Positions 1 to 61,171 of a DNA stretch of 64,000 bases are shown here, piece by piece; position 1 is the first letter of the stretch, and the number at the start of each line of letters is the position of its first letter. Origin of the DNA: Chondrosia reniformis (Eukaryota; Porifera; Demospongiae; Chondrillida; Chondrillidae); contig OX359200.1 in assembly GCA_947172415.1 (NCBI GenBank), positions 4,962,501-5,026,500 on the forward strand, in the 5' to 3' direction. The notes beneath the pieces were generated by a model. That model was not told where the DNA came from and searched no databases. It saw only the letters and a program-made list of their open reading frames with translations. Position numbers and translations under genes: made by a program.

Positions 1-2314
1 ATACAATATTAGAGTAATCAACATAAACAGATGATAGGGTTTTCTTCTAACTGTCCAAAACCTATCTCTTTAAGATGGTTCCAACATCTGATTCAAAAGA
101 AACAAACTATGTCTCAAGACACTCTAAAGACTAAAGATGAACCATCTCAAAGATAAAAATGCTAGGTAGATCCAGATCTAAAAACATGCAGTTTTAATAT
201 CAACCCATACAGATGGGTCCTAAAGAAAGCAATACACAGTTCGGTATAGGAAGGAAGATAAGCTTTATTGTACAAGTGCTCTCGTCCAAAGCTCTAGAGC
301 AAAAACAATCATTGGAAAGTTTTACGCCAAACCAGCCAAGTGACCAAGTCTAATCTTAGGGGGGGAAGTCCTATTAAATTGGCAACCAGTGATCGCCTCC
401 CAGTCATCCAAGATGGAAAAAGTCATCAAAGAACCGCAGAAAGCTGTTTCGCCCTCATTTGGGCTCATCAGTGTGGTACACTTCAATGATGGTGAGTTGG
501 ATGACTGTCTTCACTTAAGTTTTTAATCAACTACAAGTGAAACACTTGTGGTTTCATAATAAGAGAAGATGGAGGCTACAGTCTAAGTAAGACTGAGCAC
601 ACACAATGAAAACTTTTTGCTTATCATAATATCCTTTGCACGGCTCAGTGCAATTACACCCATTTAATTCAAAGCTCCAAAGGACTTAAGTCATGATTGT
701 GTTTTAGATGATTAGGTATATATAGGTCTTAAAGGTTCATGAATGTGATGTTTTCAAATTATTAACTTTACGCTGTGTTTTAAACATACGTACATTACAC
801 TTGATCTTAAAATTTACAACAGAGTATTCGAAATAGTAAGCCATCACATATAGTTATATTTGAGGCTAGAAATTGGCTAAATAATCGAAACTACATTAGT
901 ATCAAGTGCACTTACAATGTGTTTACTAGTACAGGATTTCTGTCCTTTGTGTTTTCTCTTAACTCTAAATGATGAGGATTTCCAAGTACGTAATGAGCCA
1001 CAAAAATGGCAGAATTGAAGAGCAACATGTTCTGGTGGAGCTACACAGAGAAAGGAGAAACGCACACTATACACTATACACTGTATACATGAGTGAAAAC
1101 TGGAATATGAAACTATGCTATGTGATTTATTCAATGTGAACATCTACAGAGGCATTTTTGTGAATCAAACTTGTAACACTTACCAACTTTTATTTCTTTG
1201 TATTGCCTCAGCAAATTTAGCCTAAGATAAATAGAATATATATACATGTACATAAAACTGAAAAAACAAACAAATTATATACAATTGACACTTCTGAAGA
1301 AGCTACATACATAGCTACCTAAACTATAAAGTCCCTAGACAAGATAGTGATAATACTCTGTTAAAGTACACCAGACATATGTCATGTGTAACAGAATTTT
1401 GGATACAATGACATTTTAGACATTTGTTCTCATTATTCAGATATATCTACTTATCATAATACAAATACAGTGGAAACTGGTTAACACAAATATAATTTAC
1501 ACAAATTATCACTTTACGTGAAGTACACTAGAAAAACACGGTCCCTATAATACAAAAAGTATAAGGAATAAATAATATGTTTTCTTATTAATATATTTAC
1601 TTATTTAGGTTTGTATTAATCAGGACACCCAGGTAGACCAACAACTTCAGCTGATGGGTCCTCCTGTTGAAATATCATTATTATCTATCTTCTAAAACTT
1701 GCAACCGTTAGTCACAACAACCTTACTAGAAGAATGACCAACACTGTATATGAAGGGATGGCCCAAGTAGAAGTTACAGTATTAAGACATTTTACGAATT
1801 TTCTACCATTGATTCAAACTCAAGGCGCTTGCGCTTTCTAATAATGAAAATTCTTAGACAATAATTTAAAGGCTTTATAACTCGAAGTAAAATTTCTGTA
1901 CACATGTAATGCTACCCTTTAAATGGAAGTTGCGGGTGAATAGTCAGTGCAATAATCTTATTCTGTAAGGAGTTTTAATTTCTCATTGTAGTAGCTCTCT
2001 CGGGATTACAAAATAATTGAAAGAAACTGCGAAGAAATATAAAACCAAATTTAGATAGAAACTCCGAATATAAGGGTTCTGATTTTAGGCCGAACATTAT
2101 CTACCAAATTAGATTTGTTTACTTTTTAATGATTAATTCAGCCCCAAAACTTACACGAGTAACCTTGTTATGCCGCGCGGTCCTATTCGAGCAGCTGACA
2201 TCAAGAGATCTGTAAGTCTAGCTTCCTCACTTTCACACTCAGCCTCAGCCATTTTTATGAATTACATAAGTAAATTGCGCAATTTGAACGCATAGGGGAG
2301 ATCCCATTTATGTA
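1..2314. repeat. Segmental duplication, copy A
   Basis: This block aligns by eye with 54293-56129 over most of its length, with small indels and moderate divergence. The copy includes the minus-strand exons described separately and, in both places, lies just left of a 218-bp repeat array. Copy A is separated from its array by the 6.7-kb insertion at 2315-9058; copy B is not. Outside the exons I see only AT-rich sequence. A short stretch near 310-490 resembles 26190-26340 (shared GGGCTCATCAGTGTGGT) and may be a SINE remnant. Another near 1468-1510 begins ACAGTGGAAACTGG, resembling a Tigger-type MITE tip. Confidence 0.85.
916..2252 (-). CDS. Small multi-exon gene, copy A (partial; last exon outside window)
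   Basis: First exon 2252-2155 starts MAEAECESEEARLTD and ends phase 2 at a GTAAGT donor. An internal exon at 1040-916 follows a strong acceptor (TTTCTCCTTTCTCTGTGTAG) and reads APPEHVALQFCHFCGSL, then a basic tail, ending phase 0 at GTAAGT. The FCHFC pair could be half of a zinc site. At least one connecting exon between 1050 and 2150 is needed to reconcile phases; a candidate lies near 1637-1672 but its donor is weak. Both exons are conserved in the paralog at 54037-56091, where a basic terminal exon is also visible. Function not recognised; nuclear location is only suggested by the basic composition. Confidence 0.55.
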
Positions 2315-8482: not shown

Positions 8483-11400
8483 TTTTATACATATATATAT
8501 ATGTAGTACTACACAGTGCAAGTTACAAATTTATACACGAATGCAAGTGACTCCCAAGATAATCACACTAAGGTATATAATATAATACGGATGCAAATGA
8601 CTCCCAAAATAATCACAATCAGGTATATTAAAGACTTTAGCCACACTGAAATTCTCAACTGCTGTATACAGAGTAGTAGTCTCTACAGATCATATAAGGT
8701 TAAACGCATGGCCTTCCAATTACCTTTTCACACCTTAGTATAGACTGAAGATGATGCATCTGCATGCCATTATCAGCAAAAATTCCAGTCTCATGTAGGG
8801 GGTCTCAGCCAATAATCACCACAGATTTGACTTGCCTTGAGTGTGAGCTAGGAGTACCATTGGTTGCTTGCATGCATTCACATAAACAACAGGGTTAGAG
8901 ACGATTTGGTAACTTGCACACAAAGGACACAAAGGCTGGGGCCTTTAATTTATTTCATGAACAATGTCAGCAAGACCAAGAAATGCGGCGAAATGTGCCA
9001 GACCCACTTTACGCAGGCGGCAGCCATTATTGCGGAAGTGGAGCTGGGCACGAGACTAATTTATATAAGGCGAGTCAAGAAAAATAAGACGCTTTACCTT
9101 CAAGAAGCGAGTCCAATAAAATAGGCTGACGATCGTTACCTTCAATATGGTAGGAGTGACACTGTCAGTATTGTAGATGTAGTTCAGTTCTGACAATCTA
9201 TATGAAAATGTCAAATATTTTAAAAGTGCCGTCTAGAGCTATCATCTCTTTGATTGTAATAATTTCCTTCTGTTTCCATTAAATTATTCATATATTTATG
9301 AATATCTAGTTCAAATTTGTGAAGTTTATGACCAATTCAAATTCATATACGATACTTACTTTATTGATTGAATTGCTTTCTTGTATCTTTCACTATCTCC
9401 TCAATAAATTCAACAAATGAATATTATGGATTAACAGAGTGTGAGTATCTGCTTACTGTAGTAGTGTGCATCCATTTTGTTCCTGTGTGTGTTCCAAGTG
9501 AAATGTATAATGATAATAACATGTAGACTGTAAATTGTATACAGAAATGTAACACTTTATTGTCATGAACATTTTTTGTATTGACTGAGTTGTTTTCTTG
9601 TATCTTTCACTAACTCCTCAACTAATTCAACAAACGAATATTATGGATTAACAGGAAGTGAGTATCTGCTTAATGTAGTAGCATGCATCCATTTTGTTCC
9701 TGTGTATGTTCCAAGTGATGTGTAGAATGATAATGACATGTAGACCTTTAAATTGTATACAGAAATGTAACATTTTATTGTCATGAACATTTTTTGTATT
9801 GACTGAGTTGTTTTCTTGTATCTTTCACTATCTCCTCAACTAATTCAACAAATGAATATTATGGATTAACAGCTGGTGAGTATCTGCTTAATGTAGTAGT
9901 GTGCATCCATTTTATTCCTGTGTGTGTTCCAAGTGAAGTGTAGAATGATAATGACATGTAGACTATTAAATTGTATACAGAAATGTAACACTTTATTGTC
10001 ATGAACATTGTTTGTAATGACTGAGTTGTTTTCTTGTATCTTTCACTATCTCCTCAACTAATTCAACAAATGAATATTATGGATTAACAGGAAGTGAGTA
10101 TCTGCTTAATGTAGTAGTGTACATCCATTTTGTTCCTGTGTGTGTTCCAAGTGAAGTGTATAATGATAATGACATGTAGACCATTAAATTGTATACAGAA
10201 ATGTAACACTTTATTGTCATGAACATTGTTTGTATTGACTGAGTTGTTTTCTTGTATCTTTCACTATCTCCTCAACTAATTCAACAAATGAATATTATGG
10301 ATTAACAGAAAGTGAGTATCTGCTTAATGTAGTAATGTACATCCATTTTGTTCCTGTGTGTGTTCCAAGTGAAGTGTATAATGATAATGACATGTAGACC
10401 ATTAAATTGTATATAGAAATGTAACACTTTATTGTCATGAACATTGTTTGTATTGACTGAGTTGTTTTCTTGTATCTTTCACTATCTCCTCAACTAATTC
10501 AACAAATGAATATTATGGATTAACAGCAAGTGAGTATCTGCTTAATGTAGTAGTGTGCATCCATTTTGTTCCTGTGTGTGTTCCAAGTGAAGTATAGAAT
10601 GATAATGACATGTAGATCATTAAATTGTATACAGAAATGTAACACTTTATTGTCATGAACATTTTTTGTATTGACTGAGTTGTTTTCTTGTATCTTTCAC
10701 TATCTCCTCAACTATTTCAACAAATGAATATTATGGATTAACAGTTTGTGAGTATCTGCTTAATGTAGTAGCATGCATCCATTTTGTTCCTGTGTGTGTT
10801 CCAAGTGAAGTGTAGAATGATAATGACATGTAGACCATTAAATTGTATACAGAAATGTAACACTTCATTGTCATGAACATTTTTAGTGTTTACTGCGTTG
10901 TTTTCTTGTATCTTTCACTATCTCCTCAACTAATTCAACAAATGAATATTATGGATTAACAGGGAGTGAGTATCTGCTTAATGTAGTAGTGTACATCCAT
11001 TTTGTTCCTGTGTGTGTTCCAAGTGAAGTGTATAATGATAATGACATGTAGACCATTAAATTGTATACAGAAATGTAACACTTTTTGTCATGAACATTGT
11101 TTGTATTGACTGAGTTGTTTTCTTGTATCTTTCACTATCTCCTCAACTAATTCAACAAATGACTATTATGGATTGACAGCCAGTGAGTATCTGCCTAATG
11201 TAGTAGTGTGCATCCATTTTGTTCCTGTGTGTGTTCCAAGTGAAGTGTATAATGATAATGACATGTAGACCATTAAATTGTATACAGAAATGTAACACTT
11301 TATTGTCATGAACATTGTTTGTATTGACTGAGTTGTTTTCTTGTATCTTTCACTATCTCCTCAACTAATTCAACAAATGAATATTATGGATTTACAGCTG

Positions 11401-13653
11401 GTGAGTATCTGCTTAATGTAGTAGTGTGCATCCATTTTGTTCCTGTGTGTGTTCCAAGTGAAGTGTAGAATGATAATGACATGTAAACCATTAAATTGTA
11501 TACAGAAATGTAACACTTTATTGTCATGAACATTGTTTGTAATGACTGAGTTTTTTTCTTGTATCTTTCACTATCTCCTCAACTAATTCAACAAATGAAT
11601 ATTGTGGATTTACAGCTGGTGAGTATCTGCTTAATGTAGTAGTGTGCATCCATTTTGTTCCTGTGTGTGTTCCAAGTGAAGTGTAGAATGATAATGACAT
11701 GTAGACCATTAAATTGTATACAGATATGTAACACTTTATTGTCATGAACATTTTTTGTATTGACTGAGTTGTTTTCTTGTATCTTTCACTATCTCCTCAA
11801 TTAATTCAACAAACGAATATTATGGATTAACAGGGAGTGAGTATCTGCTTAATGTAGTAATGTACATCCATTTTGTTCCTGTGTATGTTCCACGTGAAGT
11901 GTAGAATGATAATGACATGTAGACCGTTAAATTTTATACAGAAATGTAACACTTTATTGTCATGAACATTGTTTGAATTGACTGAGTTGTTTTCTTGTAT
12001 CTTTCACTATCTCCTCAACTAATTCAACAAATGACTATTATGGATTAACAGCCAGTGAGTATCTGCTTAATGTAGTAGTGTGCATCCATTTTGTTCTTGT
12101 GTGTGTTCCAAGTGAAGTGTAGAATGATAATGACATGTAGACCATTAAATTGTATACAGAAATGTAACACTTTATTGTCATGAACATTTTTAGTGTTTAC
12201 TGCGTTGTTTTCTTGTATCTTTCACTATCTCCTCAACTAATTCAACAAATGAATATTATGGATTAACAGGCTGTGAGTATCTGCTTAATGTAGTAGCATG
12301 CATCCATTTTGTTCCTGTGTATGTTCCAAGTGAAGTGTATAATGATAATGACATTTAGACCATTAAATTGTATACAGAAATGTAACACTTTTTGTCATGA
12401 ACATTGTTTGTATTGACTGAGTTGTTTTCTTGTATCTTTCACTATCTCCTCAACTAATTCAACAAACGACTATTATGGATTAACAGGAAGTGAGTATCTG
12501 CTAAATGTAGTAGTGTGCATCCATTTTGTTCCTGTGTGTGTTCCAAGTGAAGTGTATAATGATAATGACATGTAGACCATTAAATTGTATACAGAAATGT
12601 AACACTTTATTGTCATGAACATTGTTTGTATTGACTGAGTTGTTTTCTTGTATCTTTCACTATCTCCTCAACTAATTCAACAAATGAATATTATGGATTT
12701 ACAGCAAGTGAGTATCTGCTTAATGTAGTAGTGTGCATCCATTTTGTTCCTGTGTGTGTTCCAAGTGAAGTGTAGAATGATAATGACATGTAAACCATTA
12801 AATTGTATACAGAAATGTAACACTTTATTGTCATGAACATTGTTTGTAATGACTGAGTTTTTTTCTTGTATCTTTCACTATCTCCTCAACTAATTCAACA
12901 AATGAATATTATGGATTTACAGCTGGTGAGTATCTGCTTAATGTAGTAGTGTGCATCCATGTTGTTCCTGTGTATGTTCCAAGTGAAGTATAGAATGATA
13001 ATGACATGTAGACCATTAAATTGTATACAGAAATGTAACACTTTATTGTCATGAACATTGTTTGTATTGACTGAGTTGTTTTCTTGTATCTTTCACTATC
13101 TCCTCAACTAATTCAACAAATGAATATTATGGATTTACAGCTGGTGAGTATCTGCTTAATGTAGTAGTGTGCATCCATTTTGTTCCTGTGTGTGTTCCAA
13201 GTGAAGTGTAGAATGATAATGACATGTAAACCATTAAATTGTATACAGAAATGTAACACTTTATTGTCATGAACATTGTTTGTAATGACTGAGTTTTTTT
13301 CTTGTATCTTTCACTATCTCCTCAACTAATTCAAACAAATGAATATTATGGATTTACAGCTGGTGAGTATCTGCTTAATGTAGTAGTGTGCATCCATTTT
13401 GTTCCTGTGTGTGTTCCAAGTGAAGTGTAGAATGATAATGACATGTAGACCGTTAAATTGTATACAGATATGTAACACTTTATTGTCATGAACATTGTTT
13501 GAATTGACTGAGTTGTTTTCTTGTATCTTTCACTATCTCCTCAACTAATTCAACAAACGAATATTATGGATTAACAGAAAGTGGGTATCTGCTTAATGTA
13601 GTAATGTACATCTATTTTGTTCCTGTGTGTGTGCCAAGTGAAGTGTATAATGA

Positions 13654-14306
13654 TAGAAATATTAAAAATTTTCTGCAAAATTAGTGAAGATGTAGGGATG
13701 GCACAAAAAGTAGAGAAACAAGAAAGGGATGTTACACAGTGAAGTATTAGCTATACATGAATCCTACAAGCAAGGGTGTTGTATGTTTATAGCCCATACT
13801 ACATAAAAAGTACAGTTTCTGTACTTTTTATGGAGTATTGGCTAGGAATTATAATTGTATACCATTTTGGTTTCGCAAACTTTGACTGATATGACGTCAT
13901 TAAAATGGCGAAATTATCGAGGCCTTGACTCAGGGGCCATGAAAACCGTCATGCTCAATAATAGCGTTATCGCTCTCGCTTCTACAAAAGAATACAGCTC
14001 GGGAAATTTGCAATAATATTGTTTAACAATTAGTCCAAAACCTTGTATAGTTTTTTAGTTATGGCTGACGAAGAAGAAGAATATGAAGAAGACGAAAATG
14101 GGAATTTTTAAAGTTTATTATTTCGCCAGCGGGACATATTCGCTTGCCTTTAAGGTCTATTTAGAGTATGTATATTGTATATTTAGTTATACATAGCCTT
14201 GTTTTGTCGATTTTCGTCCTATTTCGGGATTTTGCTCCTTTACCGATGTATGGGGAAAACGAAAAAAAACGTGTCCTCCCTACATAGGGAGAACTACCGT
14301 ACTCCC
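13654..14306 (+). mobile_element. Family A element, copy 2, inside array 1
   Basis: It interrupts a unit after ATAATGA and the unit resumes with TGATAATGACATG, a 3-5 bp duplication. The extra length is 656 bp. It starts TAGAAATATT and ends ACCGTACTCCC. It carries a CRE-like TGACGTCA followed by AAAATGGCG (YY1-like) near 13890-13910 and then a short frame MADEEEEYEEDENGNF at about 14061. No transposase frame. Confidence 0.8.
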
Positions 14307-15756
14307 TGATAATGACATGTAGACCATTAAATTGTATACAGAAATGTAACACTTTATTGTCATGAACATTTTTTGTATTGACTGAGTTGTTTTTTTGTAT
14401 TTTTCACTATCTCCTCAACTAATTCAACAAATGAATATTATGGATTAACAGAAAGTGAGTATCTGCTTAATGTAGTAGTGTGCATCCATTTTGTTCCTGT
14501 GTGTGTTCCAAGTGAAGTATAGAATGATAATGACATGTAGATCATTAAATTGTATACAGAAATGTAACACTTTATTGTCATGAACATTTTTTGTATTGAC
14601 TGAGTTGTTTTTTTGTATCTTTCACTATCTCCTCAACTAATTCAACAAATGAATATTATGGATTAACAGAAAGTGAGTATCTGCTTAATGTAGTAGTGTG
14701 CATCCATTTTGTTCCTGTGTGTGTTCCAAGTGAAGTGTATAATGATAATGACATGTAGACCATTAAATTGTATACAGAAATGTAACACTTTATTGTCATG
14801 AACATTTTTTGTATTGACTGAGTTGTTTTTTTGTATTTTTCACTATCTCCTCAACTAATTCAACAAATGAATATTATGGATTAACAGGAAGTGAGTATCT
14901 GCTTAATGTAGTAGTGTGCATCCATTTTGTTCCTGTGTGTGTTCCAAGTGAAGTGTAGAATGATAATGACATGTAGACCATTAAATTGTATACAGAAATG
15001 TAACACTTTATTGTCATGAACATTTTTTGTATTGACTGAGTTGTTTTTTTGTATCTTTCACTATCTCCTCAACTAATTCAACAAACGAATATTATGGATT
15101 AACAGGAAGTGAGTATCTGCTTAATGTAGTAGTGAGCATCCATTTTGTTCCTGTGTGTGTTCCAAGTGAAGTGTAGAATGATAATGACATGTAGACCATT
15201 AAATTGTATACAGAAATGTAACACTTTATTGTCATGAACATTTTTTGTATTGACTGAGTTGTTTTTTTGTATCTTTCACTATCTCCTCAACTAATTCAAC
15301 AAACGAATATTATGGATTAACAGGAAGTGAGTATCTGCTTAATGTAGTAGTGTACATCCATTTTGTTCCTGTGTGTGTTCCAAGTGAAGTGTAGAATGAT
15401 AATGACATGTAGACCATTAAATTGTATACAGAAATGTAACACTTTATTGTCATGAACATTTTTAGTGTTTACTGCGTTGTTTTCTTGTATCTTTCACTAT
15501 CTCCTCAACTAATTCAACAAACGAATATTATGGATTAACAGGAAGTGAGTATCTGCTTAATGTAGTAGTGTGCATCCATTTTGTTCCTGTGTGTGTTCCA
15601 AGTGAAGTGTAGAATGATAATGACATGTAGACCATTAAATTGTATACAGATTTGTAACACTTTATTGTCATGAACATTGTTTGTATTGACTGAGTTGTTT
15701 TCTTGTATCTTTCACTATCTCCTCAACTAATTCAACAAACGAATATTATGGATTAA

Positions 15757-16376
15757 CCCTTTATGCGCGAGATAATTACGTGGGCGTAATAATTACCAGA
15801 AGCGATATTTAATTGTCACGAGGACACCATGAGGCAGGAATTAAAATTCGTCACCTCTATAGTAATGTGGCAACTCTTTGTGACGGTAAAACTTTGATGC
15901 CGATTTTTAGCCATATTTTGTTGCTCTATTGGCTTCTAAGATGCTCTAATTTTCGAGATATTACCTCTTTTAGTGAAGAAAGTAAGCACGGCTATGTTTT
16001 CTAAGTTCCTTCGGGTAAGAAGCTTTCTCTGACTATCTACGGAAGCAAATTCGGTCAGGAAGAGCCCTGGTTATCCTTTTGTAACGGTATATCTTTATGT
16101 AGTATTTTCAAAGCCCTAGAACATTGGAGAAGCGTCGTAGCCTCAAACAAATTGTTTACCAAACCGTCAAGTGAAGTGTGGCAAGCAGAATAAGGCGCAC
16201 AAATAAACCACCGTCTTAAGTCTTTGTATCGCCAACATTTCGGCTGCAGCAGTGTTATATAGCTCTGTAAATCTTACTACAAAACGTCCATGGTATCTTT
16301 GACGCAAATATGCGGCACTCGCTATTGAAGATACCTAATTAATTGTCACAAATATGCCTCACTCGCGCATAAAGGG
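15757..16376. mobile_element. 620-bp TTAA element (piggyBac-like MITE), copy 1
   Basis: Flanked by TTAA at 15753-15756 and 16377-16380, with inverted tips CCCTTTATGCGCGAG and CTCGCGCATAAAGGG. TTAA duplication with CCC tips is typical of piggyBac-type elements. It landed within the acceptor region of one array unit, but the duplicated TTAA regenerates TTAACAG in front of the triplet AAT at 16384. A copy of exactly the same length is at 59929-60548. A 63-codon frame at 15813 is present in both copies but shows no known domain. Confidence 0.9.
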
Positions 16377-17328
16377 TTAACAGAATGTGAGTATCTGCCT
16401 ATATAGTAGCATGCATCCATTTTGTTCCTGTGTGTGTTCCAAGTGAAGTGTAGAATGATAATGACATGTAGACCATTAAATTGTATACAGAAATGTAACA
16501 CTTTATTGTCATGAACATTGTTTGTATTGACTGAGTTGTTTTCTTGTATCTTTCACTATCTCCTCAACTAATTCAACAAACAAATATTATGGATTAACAG
16601 GGAGTGAGTATCCCCTTAATGTAGTAACGTACATCCATTTTGTTCCTGTGTGTTCCAAATGAAGTATAAAATGATAATGACATGTAGACTATTAAATTGT
16701 ATTCAGAAATGTAACACTTTATTGTCATGAACATTTTTTGTATTGACTGAGTTGTTTTCTTGTATCTTTCACTATCTCCTCAACTAATTCAACAAATGAA
16801 TATTATGGATTAACAGAGAGTGAGTATCTGCTTAATGTAGTAGTGTACATCCATTTTGTTCCTGTGTGTGTTCCAAGTGAAGTGTAGAATGATAATGACA
16901 TGTAGACCATTAAATTGTATACAGAAATGTAACACTTTATTGTCATGAATATTTTTTGTATTGACTGAGTTGTTTTCTTGTATCTTTCACTATCTCCTCA
17001 ACTAATTCAACAAATGAATATTATGGATTAACAGAAAGTGAGTATCTGCTTAATGTAGTAGTGTGCATCCATTTTGTTCCTGTGTGTGTTCCAAGTGAAG
17101 TGTATAATGATAATGACATGTAGACCATTAAATTGTATACAGAAATGTAACACTTTATTGTCCTGAACATTGTTTGTATTGACTGAGTTGTTTTCTTCTA
17201 TCTTTCACTATCTCCTCAACTAATTCAACAAATGAATATTATGGATTAACAGAAAGTGAGTATATGCTTAATGTAGTAGTGTGCATCCATTTTGTTCCTG
17301 TGTGTGTTCCAAGTGAAGTGTATAATGA

Positions 17329-18084
17329 CTAGAAATATTAAACATTTTCTACAAAAATAGTGAAGATGTAGGGATGGCATAAAAAGTAGAGAAACAAGAA
17401 AGGGATGTTACACAGTGAAGCATTAGCTGTGCATGAATCATACAACACCCTTGCTTGTAGGATTCATGTATAGCTAATGCTTCACTGTGTAACATCCCTT
17501 TCTTGTTTCTCTACTTTTTATGCCATCCCTACATCTTCACTATTTTTGTAGAAAATTTTTAATATTTCTAGTTTCTGTACTTTTTATGGAGCATGGGCTA
17601 GGAATTAGATTCATATAATTAAAATCATTTTGGTTTCGCAATTTTTGACTGATTATGACGTCATTAAAATGGCGACTTTATTGAGGCCTTAACTCTAGGG
17701 TCATGAAAACCGTCATGCTCAATAATAGCGTTATCGCTCTCGCTTCTACAAAAGAATACAGCTCGGAAAATTTGCAGTAGTTTCGTGTAACAATTAGTCC
17801 AAAAGCTTATATAGTTTTTTAGTTATGGCTGACGAAGAAGAAGAAGAAGAAGAAGAAGAATATGAAGAAGACGAAAATGGGAATTTTTAAAGTTTATTAT
17901 TTCGCCAGCGGGACATATTCGCTTGCCTTTAAGGTCTATTTAGAATATGTATATTGTATATTTAGCTATACATAGCCTTGTTTTGTCGATTTTCAGCCTA
18001 TATCGGGATTTCGCTCCTATACCAATGTATGGGTAAAACGAAAAAACCGTGTCATCCCTACATAGGGAGTACTACCGTACTCCC
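17329..18084 (+). mobile_element. Family A element, copy 3, with an internal foldback
   Basis: Inserted at the same unit position as copy 2, with TGA on both sides (17326-17328, 18085-18087). Its first 243 bp (17329-17571) is a perfect-looking palindrome, CTAGAAATATT to AATATTTCTAG. Then come TGACGTCATTAAAATGGCG near 17658 and the short acidic frame from 17825, here expanded by extra GAA triplets. Subterminal TGTAGGGATGG occurs in inverted orientation near both ends. Confidence 0.8.
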
Positions 18085-18762
18085 TGATAATGACATGTAG
18101 ACCATTAAATTGTATACAGAAATGTAACACTTTATTGTCATGAACATTGTTTGTATTGACTGAGTTGTTTTCTTGTATCTTTCACTATCTCCTCAACTAA
18201 TTCAACAAATGAATATTATGGATTAACAGAAAGTGAGTATCTGCTAAATGTAGTAGTGTGCATCCATTTTGTTCCTGTGTGTGTTCCAAGTGAAGTGTAT
18301 AATGATAATGACATGTAGACCATTAAATTGTATACAGAAATGTAACACTTTATTGTCATGAACATTGTTTGTATTGACTGAGTTGTTTTCTTGTATCTTT
18401 CACTATCTCCTCAACTAATTCAACAAATGAATATTATGGATTAACAGGGAGTGAGTATCTGCTTAATGTAACAGTGTGCATTCATTTTGTTCCTGTGTGT
18501 GTTCCAAGTGAAGTGTATAATGATAATGACATGTAGACCATTAAATTGTATACAGAAATGTAACACTTTATTGTCCTGAACATTGTTTGTATTGACTGGG
18601 TTGTTTTCTTGTATCTTTCACTATCTCCTCAACTAATTCAACAAACGAATATTATGGATTAACAGATTGTGAGTATCTGCTTAATGTAGTAGTGTGTATC
18701 CATTTTGTTCCTGTGTGTGTTCCAAGTGAAGTGTATAATGATAATGACATGTAGACCATTTT

Positions 18763-20013
18763 CCCTTTATCGTGGATGAGCCACTATAGTGGCTCGTGTG
18801 TGACTGCAGCTGGTGTGGAAAAGATGTAGCTATTGCACAATCGTCATGGTGGTCATAGAACATATTTACGAACGAATGTGAACTTTCTTAGCATAATTTT
18901 TACCTTTTCCGTTAACTACACTTAATATTGAACACAATAATAAGTCTGCACTGATAAAATCGGGCATTTTACGATGGTGTTTACTCGCCGAACATGATTA
19001 TCAAAACATCTGGTATATCCCTACAAAATATCGTCATGTCTATTGTTTATAAAGTCTGACATTAGTACCTTTAAGATGGTCCGAAGATTTAGAGCCGATA
19101 ATATACCAGTGGGTGAGCCCGACTGGGACAATTCTGACGCCAGCTCCGATGAAGACGACTACTCAGAATAGATTCCCTCAGAAGACCCGCACCAGTAAGC
19201 AGAGGAGTCGGACGAAGATTCTGACAACTTGTACGATACAAATAACGAACCCACGAGCATCTCCACCAGTGATAACGCAACCGAATCTACATGTAATTCA
19301 CTTGTAGATATTACTACGTACGTACGGTAGACGTCAAAAAAGGTAAACGTTTCTTTCGTTAAGACTAAGCCAGAACGGCGTACCGTTTTGTTTCGGCTTA
19401 GTTTTCAATTCGTCCCAAAGCGTTTTAGATGGTCCTTATTATAGGCCTACGATATGAATAAAACGATCAATCGTCTATTGCTTGCGTTCCGACATAAGTT
19501 GTAAATTACTGTTAAACACGTGGATACTTGTTTAGCTTACTTGTGAAATACTTGGATAATTGTACTATAATTAACACGAAGCGTTTCTCACATGCATGCG
19601 TTCCTACGCAGGACCGTTCCGCATGCTTTAGAAAGTACAGATGATCGTTTTTCAAAGACGTTCGAGCGTTGTGTATCGTCTTCACACAGTTTTCGTAGGA
19701 ACAAAACGCCGTATAAACGAAACGAAACGTTTACTTTTTTTGACGCCTACAGTATATTATCGTAAAACTGCCGCATAACGCCGTATAGTCTCCTTGTACG
19801 TAAAGTTTTATATGTGTTATAACTTCGTTGTAATATACCGCATGGCTGTATTACTGCAAATTTATATACTACTCACTATGTGTTACCTAGGAATTTATTT
19901 TAAATAAAATCGGCTAAAGTAATTGAATCATCCACGACCACCAGTCGAGCCACTTTAGTGGCTTATCCACGATAAGGCATTATTGCGCAAGGACATTTTT
20001 CCACAATAAAGGG
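18763..20013 (+). mobile_element. 1.25-kb TTAA element with transposase remnant
   Basis: Tips CCCTTTATCGTGG and CCACAATAAAGGG; right flank TTAA (20014-20017), left flank TTTT where TTAA is expected. Palindromes GAGCCACTATAGTGGCTC (18778) and GAGCCACTTTAGTGGCTT (near 19948) lie just inside both ends and may be transposase binding sites. A decayed frame from 19078 is annotated separately. Inserted in an intron-like part of array 1. Confidence 0.85.
19078..19329 (+). pseudogene. Remnant acidic N-terminus, probably piggyBac transposase
   Basis: The frame opens MVRRFRADNIPVGEPDWDN and continues very acidic (SDEDDYSE, EESDEDSDN), with in-frame stops near 19168 and 19195 and a final stop near 19327. 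A short acidic N-terminus in a TTAA-flanked element fits piggyBac transposases, whose N-termini are often acidic. The DDD catalytic core is absent, so the element is non-autonomous. Confidence 0.5.
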
Positions 20014-23000
20014 TTAAATTGTATACAGAAATGTAACACTTTATTGTCATGAACGTTGTTTGTATTGACTGAGTTGTTTTCTTGTATCTTTCACTATCTC
20101 CTCAACTAATTCAACAAATGAATATTATGGATTAACAGGTGGTGAGTGTCTGCTTAATGTAGTAGTGTGCATCCATTTTGTTCCTGTATAGTGTTCCAAG
20201 TGAAGTATAGAATGATAATGACATGTAGACCATTAAATTGTATCCAGAAATGTAACACTTTATTCTCATGAACATTGTTTGTATTGGCTGAGTTGTTTTC
20301 TTGTATCTTTCACTATATCCTCAACTAATTCAACAAATGAACATCATGGATTAACAGGATGTGAGTATCTGCTTAATGTTGTAATGTGCATCCATTTTGT
20401 TCCTGTGTGTGTTCCAAGTGAAGTGTATAATGATAATGACATGTAGACCATTAAATTGTATACAGAAATGTAACACTTTATTGTCATGAACATTGTTTGT
20501 ATTGACTGAGTTGTTTTCTTGTATCTTTCACTATCTCCTCAACTAATTCAACAAATGAATATTATGGATTAACAGCAAGTGAGTATCTGCCTAATGTAGT
20601 AGTGTGCATCCATTTTGTTCCTGTGTGTGTTCCAAGTGAAGTGTAGAATGATAATGACATGTAGACCATTAAATAGTATTCAGAAATGTAACACTTTATT
20701 GTCATGAACATGTTTGTATTGATTGAGTTGTGTTCTTGTATCTTTCACTATCTCCTCAACTAATTCAACAAATGAATATTATGGATTAACAGCAAGTGAG
20801 TATCTGCTTAATGTAGTAGTGTGCATCCATTTTGTTCCTGTGTGTGTTCCAAGTGAAGTGTAGAATTATAATGACATGTAGACCATTAAATTGTATACAG
20901 ATTTGTAACACTCTATTGTCATGAACATTTTTTGTATTGACTGAGTTGTTTTCTTGTATCTTTCACTATCTCCTCAACTAATTCAACAAACGAATATTAT
21001 GGATTAACAGAATGTGAGTATCTGCCTAATGTAGTAGCATGCATCCATTTTGTTCCTGTGTGTGTTCCAAGTGAAGTGTAGAATGATAATGACATGTAGA
21101 CCATTAAATTGTATGCAGAAATGTAACACTTTATTGTCACGAACAATTTTAGTGTTTACTGCCTTGTTTTCTTGTATCTTTCACTATCTCCTCAACTAAT
21201 TCAACAAACGAATATTATGGATTAACAGAAAGTGAGTATCTGCTTAATGTAGTAGTGTACATCCATTTTGTTCCTGTGTGTGTTCCAAGTGAAGTGTAGA
21301 ATGATAATGACATGTAGACCATTAAATTGTATACAGAAATGTAACACTTTATTGTCATGAACATTGTTTGTATTGACTGAGTTTTTTTCTTGTATCTTTC
21401 ACTATCTCCTCAACTACTTCAACAAACAAATATTATGGATTAACAGGGAGTGAGTATCCCCTTAATGTAGTAACGTACATCCATTTTGTTCCTGTGTGTG
21501 TTCCAAATGAAGTATAGAATGATAATGACATGTAGACTATTAAATTGTATTCAGAAATGTAACACTTTATTGTCATGAACATATATTGACCGAGTTGTTT
21601 TCTTGTATCTTTCACTATCTCCTCAACTAATTCAACAAATGAATATTATGGATTAACAGGGAGTGAGTATCCCCTTAATGTAGTAACGTACATCCATTTT
21701 GTTCCTGTGTGTGTTCCAAGTGAAGTGTAGAATGATAATGACATGTAGACCATTAAATTGTATACAGAAATGTAACACTTTATTGTCATGAACATTGTTT
21801 GTATTGACTGAGTTGTTTTCTTGTATCTTTCACTATCTCCTCAACTAATTCAACAAATGAATAACATGGATTAACAGGAAGTGAGTATCTGCTTAATGTA
21901 GTAGTGTACATCCATTTTGTTCCTGTGTGTGTTCCAAGTGAAGTGTAGAATGATAATGACATGTAGACCATTAAATTGTATACAGAAATGTAACACTTTA
22001 TTCTCATGAACATTGTTTGTATTGACTGAGTTGTTTTCTTGTATCTTTCACTATCTCCTCAACTAATTCAACAAATGAATATTATGGATTAACAGAAAGT
22101 GAGTATCTGCTTAATGTAGTAATGTACATCCATTTTGTTCCTGTGTGTGTTCCAAGTGAAGTGTATAATGATAATGACATGTAGACCATTAAATTGTATA
22201 CAGAAATGTAACACTTTATTGTCATGAACATTGTTTGTATTGACTGAGTTGTTTTCTGTATCTTTCATTATCTCCTCAACTAATTCAACAAATGAATATT
22301 ATGGATTAACAGAAAGTGAGTATCTGCTTAATGTAGTAGTGTGCATCCATTTTGTTCCTGTGTGTGTTCCAAGAGAAGTATAGAATGATAATGACATGTA
22401 GATCATTAAATTGTATCCAGAAATGTAACACTTTATTTTCATGAACATTTTTTGTATTGACTGAGTTGTTTTCTTGTATCTTTCACTATCTCCTCAACTA
22501 ATTCAACAAATGAATATTATGGATTAACAGTTTGTGAGTATCTGCTTAATGTAGTAGCATGCATCCATTTTGTTCCTCTGTGTGTTCCAAGTGAAGTGTA
22601 GAATGATAATGACATGTAGACCATTAAATTGTATACAGAAATGTAACACTTTATTGTCATGAACATTTTTAGTGTTTACTGCGTTGTTTTCTTGTATCTT
22701 TCACTATCTCCTCAACTAATTCAACAAACGAATATTATGGATTAACAGGAAGTGAGTATCTGCTTAATGTAGTAGTGTACATCCATTTTGTTTCTGTGTG
22801 TGTTCCAAGTGAAGTGTAGAATGATAATGACATGTAGACCATTAAATTGTATACAGAAATGTAACACTTTTTGTCATGAACATTGTTTGTATTGACTGTG
22901 TTGTTTTCTTGTATCTTTCACTATCTCCTCAACTAATTCAACAAATGAATATTATGGATTAACAGACTGTGAGTATCTGCTTAATGTAGTAGTGTGCATC

Positions 23001-23714
23001 CATTTTGTTCCTGTATAGTGTTCCAAGTGAAGTATAGAATGATAATGACATGTAGACCATTAAATTGTATCCAGAAATGTAACACTTTATTCTCATGAAC
23101 ATTGTTTGTATTGACTGAGTTGTTTTCTTGTATCTTTCACTATATCCTCAACTAATTCAACAAATGAATATCATGGATTAACAGGATGTGAGGATCTGCT
23201 TAATGTTGTAGTGTGCATCCATTTTGTTCCTGTGTGTGTTCCAAGTGAAGTGTATAATGATAATGACATGTAGACCATTAAATTGTATACAGAAATGTAA
23301 CACTTTATTGTCATGAACATTGTTTGTATTGACTGAGTTGTTTTCTTGTATCTTTCACTATCTCCTCAACTAATTCAACAAATGAATATTATGGATTAAC
23401 AGGTGGTGAGTATCTACTTAATGTAGTAGTGTGCATCCATTTTGTTCCTGTGTGTGTTCCAAGTGAAGTGCATAATGATAATGACATGTGGACCATTAAA
23501 TTGTATACAGAAATGTAACACTTTGTCATGAACATTTTTTGTATTGACTGAGTTGTTTTCTTGTATCTTTCACTATCTCCTCAACTAATTCAACAAATGA
23601 ATATTATGGATTAACAGTTGGTGAGTATCTACTTAATGTTGTAGTGTGCATCCATTTTGTTCCTGTGTATGTTCCAAGTGAAGTGTATGATGATAATGAC
23701 ATGTAGACCATTAA

Positions 23715-24200
23715 CCCTTTCCGCACCAACTTATTGTGTGGGCGGACCTATACCTTATGACTGACTTTTTCGAAGGCCACGTGATGTACGTAAGTGCTAC
23801 GTGTAAGGTAAGGTTGTTTTTACGACTGAGGAAGTGGATTCTTGTCAAGTTTAGCCTTTCGAATCAAGTGAAGAGAACGGACCAGGCACTAAACCTAGCC
23901 CTAACCCTATGCGGTCGCATTCAGAGCCTGGTCAGTTCTCTTCACTCACACGGTACGTATACAGTTAATTCGAAGGCTTTTTTCGGCACGGAGGGAAGGT
24001 TCCTGCCACCTGTTTGCACTAATCGTAAAGTGCAACTGTCTGACGACCACTTAACACCTGTTATAGTTTGCTTTGGCCGCACATATGCTAATAATTTGCC
24101 GGGAAAGCCTGTCGCCTATCTATGACGATGTATATCGTCAACGGTTATCGGCTGCATATAATTATTATGACGATGTATATCGTCTGCGGTCATTAAAGGG
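23715..24200. mobile_element. 486-bp TTAA element
   Basis: TTAA at 23711-23714 and 24201-24204; tips CCCTTTCCGC and CATTAAAGGG. An internal inverted repeat (GAGAACGGACCAGGC near 23874 and its partner near 23928) forms a hairpin. A 129-codon plus-strand frame crosses the whole element including this hairpin; it has no recognisable domain and I regard it as chance. Confidence 0.85.
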
Positions 24201-24887
24201 TTAAATTGAATACAGAAATGTAACACTTTATTGTCATGAACATTGTTTGTATTGACTGAGTTGTTTTCTTGTATCTTTCACTATCTCCTCAACTAATTCA
24301 ACAAATGAATATTATGGATTTACAGCTGGTGAGTATCTGCTTAATGTAGTAATGTGCATCCATTTTGTTCCTGTGTGTGTGTTCCAAGTGAAGTGTAGAA
24401 TGATAATGACATGTAGACCATTAAATTGTATACAGAAATGTAACACTTTATTGTCATGAACATTGTTTGTATTGACTGAGTTGTTTTCTTGTATCTTTCA
24501 CTATCTCCTCAACTAATTCAACAAATGAATATTATGGATTTACAGCTGGTGAGTATCTGCTTAATGTAGTAGTGTGCATCCATTTTGTTCCTGTGTGTGT
24601 TCCAAGTGAAGTGTAGAATGATAATGACATGTAAACCATTAAATTGTATACAGAAATGTAACACTTTATTGTCATGAACATTGTTTGTATTGACTGAGTT
24701 GTTTTCTTGTATCTTTCACTATCTCCTCAACTAATTCAACAAATGAATATTATGGATTAACAGACTGTGAGTATCTGCTTAATGTAGTAGTTTCTTGTTA
24801 TATGTATGGACTAAAATATAGGAAAGAGATTTATCACTTAAAAAAAGCAAAGACAGTCATTCCAAAGATGTGTCACAATTGACTATC

Positions 24888-25629: not shown

Positions 25630-25707
25630 GACAAGAAGGATATGTATGTTTCTGAAAATGCATCCAACACGAAAAACCTCGAAGAAGATGACTCGAAGGT
25701 TAAACAG
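25630..25707 (+). CDS. 78-nt exon downstream of array 1
   Basis: Between acceptor TATTTGTAG and donor GTAATT the frame reads DKKDMYVSENASNTKNLEED and six more residues. It is 26 whole codons in phase 0, the same phase the 3-nt array cassettes would need. It is rich in K, D, E and N like the array codons. It could be the first ordinary exon after array 1, or belong to the gene ending at 28707. No domain recognised. Confidence 0.5.
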
Positions 25708-51329: not shown

Positions 51330-53690
51330 ATGTTGTTTTGGCTCCTTTTTACTCCACTGGATTACAACTTGAATCAGCAACAACAGCTGGAACTGCAGAA
51401 GAAGAGATTTGGTTAGTATATTAGTAGTGTTATAGCTCATTCTCCTATATGAAGTAATAGGTGGGTTCCTCAGCAATGAATGAGGTGAAAAAGGATATAT
51501 CCAGTTTTATTGGAACAAAGTGTCATGAATCATCTAGATTTATAGAACATCGATTGTTATATCCTTAAGTACTTAATTCAGACACCTCTCTCTGTATGCT
51601 ATAGCTACCAACTGGATGGGACTTAGAAACCTTCCTTTACTGCTGTTTCAGTTTTAATGATCTCTACGCTAACTTTAATATATCTTTATTCATATGGTGA
51701 ACTAAATACAGGGTGCAGTTAGGGTAGAGGATGTATTTATTTAATCTTGCCACTGGTCTACACTTGTTAAGATCTGCCAATAATATGTATCTTAAAATTA
51801 TTGAGAAGACATCTTTGAATGCCACCTAATTTACATATACGTATGTCTCTGGTAATACATACAAAATGTACAAACATAACATCAGTCAAACGCTAGAAAG
51901 ATGATTTCTTGATGCTTCAATGTGTGTCTTGTAAGAATCTTATGTGGATTTGGACTGCAGCTGTTTACTGGACTCTCAATTGGGCCATTACTTGATATTA
52001 TTACTTGTGTGTACCAATGTAATGAAACTGCAAGGTCTCAGAAGTATAAGAACTGTAGTCTAGGTGTAATTCATTAAGTTGATAAGCCATGTGCAAACTT
52101 ATGCATAAGTGTGATCATGTCAATGTCTCAATGTCCGATTTGTAGATTACATTCAGTACAATATGATATGTAATATATATGTATATGAGCCAGTGATTAA
52201 AATTTAATTCGATTGTGGTTTTGTAACTTGCACTGTGTTGTAGTTGTAATAGCAGTACGTATATACGTAATTTATAATTTACATATTATGTATACGTATT
52301 ATTTAAATTATATATTCTAGGAAGTAATTGAAAGGTTAAGAGGCGAAAAGGATGCTGATTTGATAAAATCCAGGAATGAATTGAAAGTATTTTAAGCAAT
52401 GTTAAGATTTGGTATAGACTTGTTTATGTAGTAGTTATACTTTTAGGATAAGACTGATGAGGCAAGCAAAAGACTTGAGGCCATGGAAAAGGAAAGAGCT
52501 GCTTTAGAGGAGAGAAATAAAAGCTTCCAAGCTAAAAAGCCATTAAAAATGATTGAAAGTATGTCAACACACCTTAAGTTGGGCCTTCTTGTTGTAATGT
52601 AAATTGAATATACGTAGTACAATACTTTTACTTAGTCAATGTTTATGAACTTATTTATTGTTTTTAATTACAGAGTGTCAGAACATTGAGACACTCTTGA
52701 GGTAAACGTATACATTCAACAGTGCAACCTAATTGTCAAGATTGTTATTACAATGTACAGTGGACGTATACTTTTATATACAGTACTCAGCTCAAAGATG
52801 GCCACTTATCAGTCCTGCAAACAGTTGTGGTTGACCGGGTATCACACAAGTGGAGAGGGATTGCTACCTTTCTCATGTTCTCCATAAACAAAATGGACTC
52901 CAGAGAACATGATTCAGGCAAGGATAAGAAGGAAATATGCTTTAAGATGTTTAGTGAATGGCTGAAGAGAGCTAAAGAAACTGGAGACTTGCCAAGGACA
53001 CTTGGAAGTGTTTGTGAAGCTCTTGATGATCGTGATGAGAAACAAGTAGCCGATGGACTTGTGGCAGCAATACAAAATGCTTGAAGCAACTTGCACAAAA
53101 CTAGTAAAAATAATTTAGAAAGCTGTTTCTTTCTTAGCTTGTATAACTAAGACTTGTGTAGGTACAAACATGTGGCAATAGAAAATGCTTGACATTTAGC
53201 TATTTGGTAAATAACACATAGAATTAACTTCAACTCAACCCTATATCACTTATTATGATAACTATACATGATCTGTTTGATTGCAAGTAACCCATTTGAA
53301 GGTTATTCCTAATAATGACGTCATATAAGTAACCGACCACTGAATCGCCAACTGTGTTGATTATAAAGTGGAGAGACTCGGGAAGAACTCTATGATTACA
53401 ACAACAGCAGCCGAAACTGTAGAAGAAGAGATTTGGTTAGTATAGTGTTCTCCTACGTATATGAAATATATAACATGGGTTCTTAAGCAGTGAATGAGGT
53501 GAAGGATATATATAACCAGTTTTATTGGAAAAGGTGTCATGAGTCATCATCTAGATTTATATATAGAACATCTGTAGTTATATCCTTAAGTTCTTAATAC
53601 AGACACCTCTCTCTGTATGCTATAGCTATACCAACTGAGACTGGGAGACCTTCCTTTCCTCCTTGTATATATCAGTTTTTTTATGCAATG
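51330..53690. repeat. Local tandem duplication around the DEATH-domain gene
   Basis: 51363-51665 and 53397-53690 share GAAGAAGAGATTTGGTTAGTAT, CAGTGAATGAGGTGAA-type blocks and ACACCTCTCTCTGTATGCTATAGC. The left member may hold a first exon (51330-51411, MLFWLLFTPLDYNLNQ), the right member one starting MITTTAAETVEEEIW, but neither phase matches the next known exon. 53107-53395 is also homologous to 28708-28990, including TAATGACGTCA and AACCGACC. Confidence 0.7.
52321..53084 (+). CDS. Coiled-coil plus DEATH-domain protein (5' end uncertain)
   Basis: Four phase-consistent exons: 52321-52386 (EVIERLRGEKDADLIKSRNE), 52447-52558 (KTDEASKRLEAMEKERAALE), 52674-52701 and 52784-53084. The last ends in a domain with KWRGIATFLMFSINKMDSRE, CFKMFSEWLKRAKETG and LGSVCEALDDRDEKQVADGL, the helices and Trp positions of a DEATH domain, an adaptor fold in apoptosis and innate immune signalling. 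The upstream part is a charged coiled coil for oligomerisation. Its 3' flank is shared with the gene ending at 28707. First exon(s) lie upstream but could not be fixed. Confidence 0.75.
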
Positions 53691-54036: not shown

Positions 54037-56091
54037 TCATACAGTTTCCAGAAAGGATCGCAAGGAGTTTTTTGGTTCAGAGTGACACAATCTCCTTTCC
54101 TGATCACTGACAGCCAACTTCAGTGCATTCAACTGCCTCTTCCTCCCAGTTGACAGAGCAGGAGACCTTCTCACCTGCTTCTTTGGAGTATCCATTTTGT
54201 GCTTGGATTTTGGTTTGTTCTGTAAATCAAATGAACATGTCTTTTTACAAAAGTGGCAGAGTGCAACCTGGATAGCAGAACGACGTTATAACATGCAATA
54301 TTAGAGCAATTAACATAAATAGATGATAGGGTTTTCTTCTAACGGTGTTAAACCTATCTCTTTGAGATGGTTAGAACATCCAATTCAAAACTGCATGTTT
54401 TTAGATCTGGATCTACCTAACATTTTTATCTTTAGTTTTTAGAGTGTCTTGAGACACAGTTTGTTTCTGAGTATATGTTGGCAGATTGGCCAATCAATGA
54501 AATCTAATGCACCTCAACCCATACAGATGGGTTCTAAAGGAAGCAACGCATGGTCTAGTATAGGAAGGAAGATAAGCTTCACTGTACAAGATCCAGGAAT
54601 GTGATGTTTTAATTTATTAACTTTACACTGTGCTATAAACATACAATCTACAAAAAACACAAGTGCACTTAGAATGTGTTTACTAGTATGGGATTTCTGT
54701 CCTTTGTGTTTTCTCTTAACTCTAAATGATGAGGATTTCCAAGTACGTAATGAGCCACAAAAATGGCAGAATTGAAGAGCAACATGTTCTGGTGGAGCTA
54801 CACAGAGAAAGGAGAGACACACACTATACACTATACATTGTATACACGAGTGAAAACTGGCATATGAAACTATGCTATTTGATTTATTCAATATGAACAT
54901 CTACAGAGGCAATTATTTTGCAAATCAAACTTGTAACACTTACCAACTTTTATTTCTTTGTACTGCCTCAGCAAATTTAGCCTAAGATAAATAGAATATA
55001 TATACATGTACATACAACTGAAAAAACAAACAAATGAATAATTTTTTTACATACATTTGACACTTCTGAAAAAGTTACATACATAGCTATCTAAACTATA
55101 AAGTCCCTAGACAAGATAATACTCTGTTAAAGTACATCAGATATGTGTCATGTGTAACAGAATTTTGGATACAATGACATTTCAGACATTTGTTCTCATT
55201 AATCAGACATATCTACTTATAATACAATTACAGTGGAAACTGGCTAACACAAATATAATTTACACGAATTATCACTTTACGTGAAATACACTAGAAAAAC
55301 ACAGTCCCTATAATACAAAATTTATAAGGAATAAATAATATGTTTTTTTTATTAATATTTATACGTTTTTATTATTCTTATTATTCTTCTTTTCTTATTT
55401 ATTTATGCTTGTATTAATCAGGACACCCAGGTAAACCAACAACTTCAGCTGATGGGTCCTCTTGTTGAAATATCATTAATATCTATCTAGCCATCTAAAA
55501 CTTGCAACTGTTAGTCACAACAACCTTACTAGAAGAATGACCAACACTGTATATGAAGGGAGGGCCCAAGTAGAAGTTACAGTATTAAGACATTTTACCG
55601 ATTCTCAGAATTACTATATACCATTGAGTTTGATTAGAACTCAAGGTGCTTGCGCTTTCTGATAATGAAATTCTTAGACAATAATTTAAAGGCTTTATCA
55701 CTCGAAGTAAAATTTCTGTACACAGGTATGACCTAGTCTGATGAAATCAGACCTTTCATTGCGCAATCACCGATTTCATCAGACTAGGTATGACCACCCT
55801 TTAAATGGAAGCTGCGGGTGAATAGTCAGCGTAGTAGCTCTCTCGGTTAAGATTACTGAATGATTGAAAGAAACTGCGAAGAAATATAAAACCTAACTTA
55901 CGTAGATAGAAGCTCGAAATATAAGTGTGGACATTATCCACCAAATTATATTTGTCTACTTTTAATGATTAATTCTGCCCCAACACTTACACGAGTAACC
56001 TTGATATGGCGCGCGGTCCTATTCGAGAAGCTGACATCAAGAAATCTGTATATCTAGCTTCCTCACTTTCACACTCTGCCTCAGCCATTTA
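54037..56091 (-). pseudogene. Small multi-exon gene, copy B
   Basis: Paralog of 916-2252. First exon near 56091-55997 reads MAEAECESEEARYTDFLMSA. The CHFC exon (54797 leftward) keeps its acceptor, but the phase-0 donor GTAAGT of copy A is CTAAGT here, at about 54670. A terminal exon 54219-54037 after GATTTACAG reads NKPKSKHKMDTPKKQVRRSP then TGRKRQLNALKLAVSDQERR and stops; it is strongly basic. Loss of the donor may inactivate copy B, or a GTAAAC site 15 nt upstream may serve. Function not recognised. Confidence 0.5.
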
Positions 56092-60548: not shown

Positions 60549-61171
60549 TTAATTAGCGTGCATCCATGACATGTATAGACCATTAAATTTTAGACTGTAA
60601 TATAATATGTTATTGTCATGAACATTGTATTGACTGAGTTATTTTCTTGTATCTTTCACTATCTCCTCAACTAATTTGACAAATGAATATTATGGATTAA
60701 CAGGGAGTAAGTATCTGCTTAATGTAGTATATAATGGTGTGTATCAATTTTGTTACTGTGTGTATTCCAAGTGAAGTGTATAATGATAATGACATGCAGA
60801 CCATTAAATTGTAGACTTTAATGTAACACTTTGTTCTCATGAACATTGTTTGTATTGACTGAGTTGTTTTCTTGTATCTTCCACTATCTCCTCAACTAAT
60901 TCAACAAATGAATATTATGGATATAAAGGGAGTGAGTATCTGCTTTTAATGTAGTAGTGTGCATCCATTTTGTTCCTGTGTGTGTTCCAAGTGAAGTGTA
61001 TAATGATAATGACATGTAGACCATTAAATTGTAGACAGAAATGTAACACTTTATTGTCATGAGTATTGTTTATATTGACGAAGTTGTTTTCTTGTATCTT
61101 TCACTATCTCCTCAACTAATTCAACAAATGATTATTATGGATTAACAGGGAGTGAGTGTCTGCTTAATGTA

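Follow-up and report, generated by a model that had tools for sequence, protein, structure and literature searches.

We analysed a 64,000-nucleotide stretch of chromosome 12 of the sponge Chondrosia reniformis (contig OX359200.1, positions 4,962,501-5,026,500, forward strand; the window) together with the rest of the genome, and consider it likely that tandem arrays in this region are serially spliced single-codon exons, all in phase 0, which would be joined in genomic order, each array as part of one open reading frame (ORF), and would form a segment of Death-domain proteins. We infer the splicing, the order of the exons and the product from features of the sequence. The genome searched was the C. 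reniformis assembly of 117,379,552 bases in 15 contigs; passages of a genome report give 14 chromosomes and a mitochondrion for odChoReni1.1, with chromosomes 9 and 12 at 7.70 and 7.52 Mb (PMC12181767).

The window holds an array of 54 units (array G) that an earlier note on this DNA had reported together with 16 different triplets, and a recount bears both numbers out, with triplets spanning 9438 to 24766 at a usual spacing of 217-219 bp. The triplets are AAA (10), GAA (9), CTG (8), GGA (6), CAA (4) and eleven others occurring once or twice each; no stop codon is found among the 54. Each is flanked by ...GGATTAACAG on the 5' side and GTGAGTAT on the 3' side, with few variants. The units carry a pyrimidine tract, the branch-like CAACTAATTC and then an AG-free stretch up to the acceptor, just as that note had described. 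The array, the anatomy of one unit and a second, less regularly spaced array (triplets GCA 7, GGA 5, TTT 2, GCT, AAA and CTG) are as follows:

9362..24795, plus strand: array G, 54 single-codon exons, concatenated reading SELEKQFGPLLGPAEQLLLKKKEEEENGRKKKGIVDQQNKGGEKKFETDVLLLT
9619..9665, plus strand: example unit as read from the sequence, with branch-like CAACTAATTC at 9619-9628, acceptor AACAG ending at 9654, exon GAA at 9655-9657 and donor GTGAGTAT at 9658-9665
56511..62288, plus strand: second window array, 17 single-codon exons

Five wide gaps interrupt array G (13581-14451, 15545-16383, 17256-18229, 18669-20138 and 23621-24325), and the DNA inserted in them appears transposon-like by eye. 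One insert, 15757-16380, bounded by TTAACCCTTTATGCGC and GCGCATAAAGGGTTAA and piggyBac-like by eye, sits exactly in the TTAA of an acceptor TTAACAG; it leaves TTAACAG-AAT-GTGAGTAT intact and displaces the branch region.

The 54-unit array is confirmed, and the system is larger than first reported: the earlier note held neither the second window array nor a continuation over 251 kb of chromosome 12, nor arrays on other chromosomes. A permissive pattern scan of chromosome 12:4,840,001-5,120,000, which tolerates three substitutions per side and is biased toward intact sites, found 393 units on the plus strand over 251 kb, and one match, unrelated-looking, on the minus strand. By group they number 28 (A), 8 (B), 1 (C), 28 (D/E), 79 (F), 54 (G), 17 and 3 (H), 101 (I) and 74 (J/K), with 29 kinds of triplet among them. 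Genome-wide, AACAGNNNGTGAGTAT occurs 319 times forward and 22 times in reverse (reversed control pattern, 2 and 2), and CTCAACTAATTCAACAAATGAATATT, with up to 3 mismatches, 392 times forward and never in reverse (control, 0). The unit pattern is therefore not due to chance, the counts far exceeding those of the reversed controls. All 392 copies of this branch motif of the chromosome 12 intron fall within the one 251-kb stretch, where the arrays sit in tandem duplicates whose flanking blocks are mostly about 88-98% identical.

To measure exon length, we anchored on the branch-region motif only and left the splice sites out of the selection. At a fixed distance from the motif, AG, exactly three bases and GT follow in 389 of 392 cases, which is the genome's whole count. 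Of the remaining three, one has an insertion, one the donor CTGAGT and one an additional AG upstream. With a pattern joining acceptor and donor, 363 exons came out at 3 nt and two at 7 nt, each of the two being also open to a 3-nt reading if the donor is placed four bases upstream; 75 further sites had no donor within 60 nt and were mostly chance acceptor-like matches, with some diverged-donor units. On chromosome 12, mean column variation is 1.7% in the 66 nt before the exon, 1.8% in donor positions +1 to +8, 3.5 and 5.1% in the rest of the intron (where a few columns are more variable, up to 40%) and 66, 49 and 39% at the three triplet positions. Exactly 3 nt thus sit between an AG acceptor, preceded by branch site, pyrimidine tract and AG-free stretch, and a GT donor, the combination of features that marks a spliceosomal 3-nt microexon.

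Coding constraint, likewise a mark of such a microexon, is seen in stop codons counted by phase and in the stop forms found genome-wide. Stops in the chromosome 12 arrays number 1 of 393 in phase 0, 14 of 383 in phase 1 and 34 of 383 in phase 2, with 17.6 expected if triplet positions were independent; as the units are related by duplication, a simple P value overstates the scarcity and the contrast between phases is the fairer measure. Across the genome, CAG-NNN-GTGAGTAT occurs at 848 sites (671 forward, 177 reverse; reversed control pattern, 12 and 10), among which TAA and TAG are absent and TGA occurs five times, always outside the arrays located here. A codon of the form NAG would make a second acceptor three bases downstream, and we accordingly read the scarcity of such codons in the chromosome 12 arrays (1 of 393 versus 19.9 expected; Fisher P 4e-12) as a sign of exons. 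For lysine, glutamate and glutamine, these arrays have A as the last base in 165 codons and G in a single one; in the long ORFs of the locus, many of which look transposon-like, CAA/CAG stand at 172/194, AAA/AAG at 273/284 and GAA/GAG at 331/201. Other codons ending in G do occur in the arrays (TTG, CTG, GTG, TGG and ATG).

Ordinary exons lie around the arrays, and their phases run consistently through to the stop codon of a Death-domain exon:

2142..2211, plus strand: tentative candidate upstream exon, 70 nt, acceptor ATTCAG, donor GTAAGT, reading ..PKTYTSNLVMPRGPIRAADIKRS, ending in phase 0
25630..25707, plus strand: 78-nt exon, phase 0 to 0, DKKDMYVSENASNTKNLEEDDSKVKQ, after TATATTTGTAG and before GTAATT
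52447..52558, plus strand: coiled-coil-like exon DKTDEASKRLEAMEKERAALEERNKSFQAKK.., phase 0 to 1, five copies
52674..52701, plus strand: 28-nt exon, phase 1 to 2
52784..53084, plus strand: last coding exon, Death domain, stop TGA at 53082-53084
55978..56047, plus strand: copy of the upstream exon before the second window array, degenerate acceptor TCTG, donor GTATAT

Downstream exons entered in phase 0 follow arrays A, B, D/E, G and H. Array A is succeeded within 110 bp by an exon NPPPQGVPPQQYQPPQGAPPQQ... (4,871,577-4,871,786, phase 0 to 0), and arrays B, D/E and H by coiled-coil-like exons such as DERDRYMSKAKVLESKNGDLKVQLQSLNHKVKSEEDDLKKKQ. Exon 25630-25707, to which the earlier note had expected the array G triplets to be joined, is a plausible phase-0 partner; it resembles by eye the coiled-coil exons DERDRYMSKAKVLES..EEDDLKKKQ of the duplicated genes, and its form is present in a single copy in the locus. 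The coiled-coil-like exon at 52447..52558 is 112 nt long with phase 1 out in the four of five copies whose donor was resolved. The exon after it measures 28 nt in three of five copies, is visible in a fourth and is altered in the fifth, that after array H. The last exon matches the Death domain of Pfam (PF00531; E 7.8e-5, 23.2 bits versus a cut-off of 22.6), and a shorter 64-aa piece of it gave no Pfam match. Matches in the PDB to the Death domains of RIPK1 and FADD are weak, and the search that returned RIPK1 also listed an unrelated CRISPR protein near E 0.05. Five copies of this exon exist, the other four being 81-94% identical to that of the window; by eye, four of the five keep the frame at the exon start, and the copy at 5,046,808 looks broken. 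Upstream, the 70-nt candidate has eight copies in the locus, seven of which precede the next unit by 463-1144 bp (two of them ahead of array B), while the copy at 2142..2211 lies 7.2 kb before array G. By eye, its donors are GTAAGT in five of eight copies, ATAAGT in two and GTATAT in one, and the acceptor AG is present in seven of eight.

At arrays B, D/E and H, array, coiled coils and Death domain follow one another within about 3.3-5.5 kb, and we infer from this collinearity and from the consistent phases that array and Death domain would belong to one transcript. The link is weakest for array G, because 27 kb, with transposon-like DNA and a signal-peptide gene, intervene between it and the Death exon.

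Arrays of the same design, built on other introns, were found on four further chromosomes:

Chromosome 9, 1,516,731-1,527,502, minus strand: 17 units, mostly about 455 bp apart, reading QHFFFQQFFHQHHQFFL
Chromosome 2, about 9.735-9.7515 Mb among the matches listed, minus strand: family of about 107 bp
Chromosome 7, about 5.582-5.589 Mb among the matches listed, plus strand: same family as chromosome 2
Chromosome 13, sites at 4.776-4.799 and 4.8235 to at least 4.852 Mb, plus strand: units mainly 115 and 75 bp

On chromosome 9, all 17 units anchored upstream have a 3-nt exon. Samples of 1.5-1.8 kb from each of chromosomes 2, 7 and 13 gave 14, 14 and 17 pattern-selected units (45 in total), which form gapless series with no stop; one donor on chromosome 7 is GC. 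Introns of chromosomes 2 and 7 are mostly 87-89% identical, whereas those of chromosome 12, chromosome 9, chromosomes 2/7 and chromosome 13 share only short matches of at most 23 bases, the printed ones lying mostly at exon/splice sites. The chromosome 13 and chromosome 2/7 introns may be distant relatives, which is why we put the number of intron families at three or four. Downstream of the chromosome 9 array, on the array's minus strand (1554-5300 of the piece read), lies a gene with the motifs GPSGVGKST and DTGGQPAF, recognised by eye as Walker-A-like and DTGGQ-like. It had no Pfam or PDB match and its CARD-like tail was weak (E 0.12, below cut-off); it is possibly another death-fold signalling gene beside an array.

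Each array would supply up to about a hundred one-codon exons. Those of chromosome 12 would encode a segment, variable and for the most part hydrophilic, in the proteins of a gene family that has duplicated in tandem; from there its members would continue into ordinary coiled-coil exons and end in the Death domain. U1 can pair with intron positions +1 to +8; the donor GTGAGTAT could do so over eight intron bases, and the bases of the exon would thus be dispensable. Splicing could then proceed as a ratchet, in which removal of an intron would again place the new codon against a strong donor, the next short intron would be removed in turn, and one codon would be gained per step.

Codons diverge far faster than introns, since even triplets with no matching base can lie between identical introns: among 40 unit pairs with fully identical introns, the triplet is shared in 18 and differs at one, two and three bases in 10, 6 and 6, respectively, and the mean difference is near its plateau (1.72 of 3) by two intron differences. 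Nearest relatives share a triplet in 145 of 393 cases, compared with 48.6 in within-gene shuffles, indicating that unit and codon are often copied together. After copying, the codon changes or the intron is homogenised, very fast, and we favour duplication with homogenised introns and selection on codons. Recombination between near-identical introns would multiply the units by tandem duplication and would add or drop whole codons without frameshift; selection would keep or diversify the codons as the introns stay homogeneous.

An alternative origin for serial exons is the repeated insertion of an introner-like element into existing coding sequence, the codons then being old and the introns new. 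Differing triplets in 22 of the 40 pairs with identical introns, six of them at all three bases, would fit this, but insertion exactly every three bases and always in phase 0 is hard to explain, tandem duplication of an exon-intron unit yields both for free, and the excess of shared triplets among nearest relatives shows codon and intron often copied together; we regard such an origin as unlikely. That the arrays are a noncoding satellite with splice-like signals, removed within one long intron and carrying a triplet that is merely mutable, seems highly unlikely. Tandem arrays with transposon-like inserts do resemble ordinary satellites, yet this leaves unexplained the scarcity of stops in one phase, the avoidance of NAG, the divergence of the triplet faster than almost any other column, and the arrays of the same design with other introns.

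The earlier note had left open whether the units form a serially spliced gene or a bank of alternative single-residue exons, of which one or few triplets would enter each mRNA, like mutually exclusive exons. Near-identical splice sites would let any acceptor plausibly pair with any donor, a bank would equally be expected to lack phase-0 stops, and the paralogous arrays differ. Its redundancy would, however, be extreme, CAA alone filling 34 of the 79 units of array F where a bank needs at most 20 residues, and composition is regional, with Q/L/I, K/E, G/A and D/S blocks visible by eye. These two features make a bank less likely, and we hold it to be very improbable. Residue order bears on the same question. 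In array order, hydrophobic residues favour the coil spacings 3, 4 and 7 over 2, 5 and 6 (62 versus 45; lag test P 0.046, contrast P 0.02), a weakly positive result, whereas an earlier Fourier test of amphipathicity in the peptides of eight arrays found none significant; duplications complicate both tests. Serial splicing fits better than a bank, with one order test negative and the other weakly positive.

Tandem single-codon exons, as the earlier note proposed, are thus supported, as far as sequence can indicate, by the 3-nt length, the conserved AG/GT and branch region, the phase-specific scarcity of stops, NAG avoidance, phase-0 neighbouring exons and arrays with other introns. Several points weigh against their serial splicing. 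The sole stop among the 393 units is a TAA in the 79-unit array F (chromosome 12:4,945,348); it may be a recent change, given its donor GTAAGTAT and an intron in which no base differs from the intron of a CAA unit. NAG avoidance is not universal, GAG being present in the arrays of chromosomes 2 and 13, and one chromosome 12 donor is the CTGAGT noted above. Assignment of the upstream exon is uncertain, and arrays F and I showed no copy of it ahead of them. Behind arrays F, I and J/K we recognised no ordinary exon, the gene copy with array G may not be intact, given the transposon-like DNA and the signal-peptide gene that cross it, and the peptide of the 101-unit array had no homologue in a homology search. 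The order tests are equivocal. Serial splicing would demand very high fidelity, and a run of 54-101 consecutive 3-nt exons spliced in series has, to our knowledge, no precedent.

We would add, as a tentative and rather doubtful extension, that a codon-cassette architecture, in which the exon is the codon, arose several times, is ratchet-spliced and recombination-edited, and serves Death-fold proteins, perhaps as an allorecognition or immune repertoire. Such a system would let Death-fold signalling proteins change in length and sequence residue by residue without frameshift, and the repertoire would perhaps differ between individuals. Should transcripts bear out the serial splicing itself, the spliceosome would be adding single codons dozens of times running with no guiding exonic sequence, so that exon definition and the lower limit of exon size would need rethinking, and recombination between introns would be a testable route to writing protein sequence codon by codon. 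Genes with one-codon exons are a class that standard annotation would be expected to miss. The presence of several arrays with different introns in one genome suggests that the splicing machinery of this sponge tolerates what others may not.

Other features of the locus were considered alongside the arrays. A two-exon gene start at window positions 27558-28148 encodes a signal peptide, MGRVTFLLAGVIALVAVSSCAP, followed by 49-aa repeats with GKIHWWTGYRSGSASSQS, and ends at a stop; no Pfam family scored above cut-off. Its signal-peptide exon has five copies among the arrays of the locus, one without an ATG. The signal-peptide/WWTGY protein had one match, a 117-aa ORF on a 2.16-Mb ENA contig that by sequence is apparently the same locus. 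We rejected this region as the 3' part of an array gene, as it is a gene start and possibly a separate gene. Chondrosin, a cytotoxic secreted protein of C. reniformis, has the signal-peptide cleavage context AEA/SK in the passage cited (PMC7459819); this context is absent from the signal peptide found here, and chondrosin was dropped as its identity. Two further candidate exons were rejected: a K-rich segment near 4,856,530 with its copies, which is part of a both-strand repeat and in which a frameshift separates three of the four plus-strand copies from the remaining one, and a 52-aa ORF that recurs on the minus strand in eight copies.

Transposase-like ORFs at 30748-32813 resemble hAT elements by eye, and 34374-35069 on the minus strand has a Tc1/mariner look. 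A series of plus-strand ORFs at 44713-50412 may form one element-like gene, in which 47748-48053 matches DUF7869 (PF25273) above the Pfam cut-off. Most other ORFs tried had no Pfam match above cut-off, and the window contains no Rfam families. An AT-rich 327-bp repeat at 41562-43382 (5.6 copies, 98% alike) shows several splice-like sites, for example TTATTAG-GCATCCATGTTT-GTAAGT, with no variable triplet seen, unlike the arrays. A 27-bp repeat at 49780-50008 (8.5 copies) holds the palindrome-like GTGCAAATTTGCAC.

Several known systems share parts of this design. Fungal HNWD/NLR genes, which encode immune-type proteins, carry near-identical tandem repeats in which a few codons are hypervariable; in those genes the repeat is itself coding sequence, whereas in the sponge all but three bases of it would be intron. 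Recursive splice sites (ratchet points) are zero-length exons that leave nothing in the mRNA. The proposed regeneration of a donor directly after each acceptor is like theirs, but each sponge step would leave one codon. RPS24 is said to contain a 3-nt microexon, and isolated ones are described in excerpts on mouse Ncam and Drosophila TnT (PMC8042270). These, too, are spliceosomal exons of one codon, but they stand as single cassettes or small groups, not in long arrays. Introners, as the cited passages describe them, provide many near-identical introns in one genome (PMC9860276); they insert into many genes, a dispersal that the chromosome 12 intron does not show, its copies lying in tandem exactly three bases apart. 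Searches of open-licence PMC papers turned up no array of one-codon or tandem microexons recognisable from titles and abstract openings.

Closest are the micro-exon genes (MEG) of Schistosoma, which in the sections cited have serial very short exons, mostly multiples of three, with much longer introns, and are easily missed by annotation (PMC10526429). Their exons run from 6 bp (body text; 3 in the abstract) to 81 bp and are mostly 15 bp, with 10-20 of them per gene and introns of up to about 5 kb (PMC10526429). The likeness would lie in very short exons that follow one another in series and together make up coding sequence. Products of such genes are secreted and have a signal peptide; in the sponge a signal-peptide exon lies between arrays, possibly as the start of a separate gene. 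The differences are that the array exons, at 3 nt, fall outside the MEG range of about 6-81 bp, that serial phase-0 triplet arrays reach 54-101 units, that the introns are near-identical and only 72 to about 455 nt long, and that the chromosome 12 arrays have a Death-domain tail. The micro-exon gene is the nearest known kind, and the underlying chemistry would be ordinary spliceosomal splicing; as read here, the architecture itself, in which exon equals codon over long runs and in three or four intron families, is categorically new.

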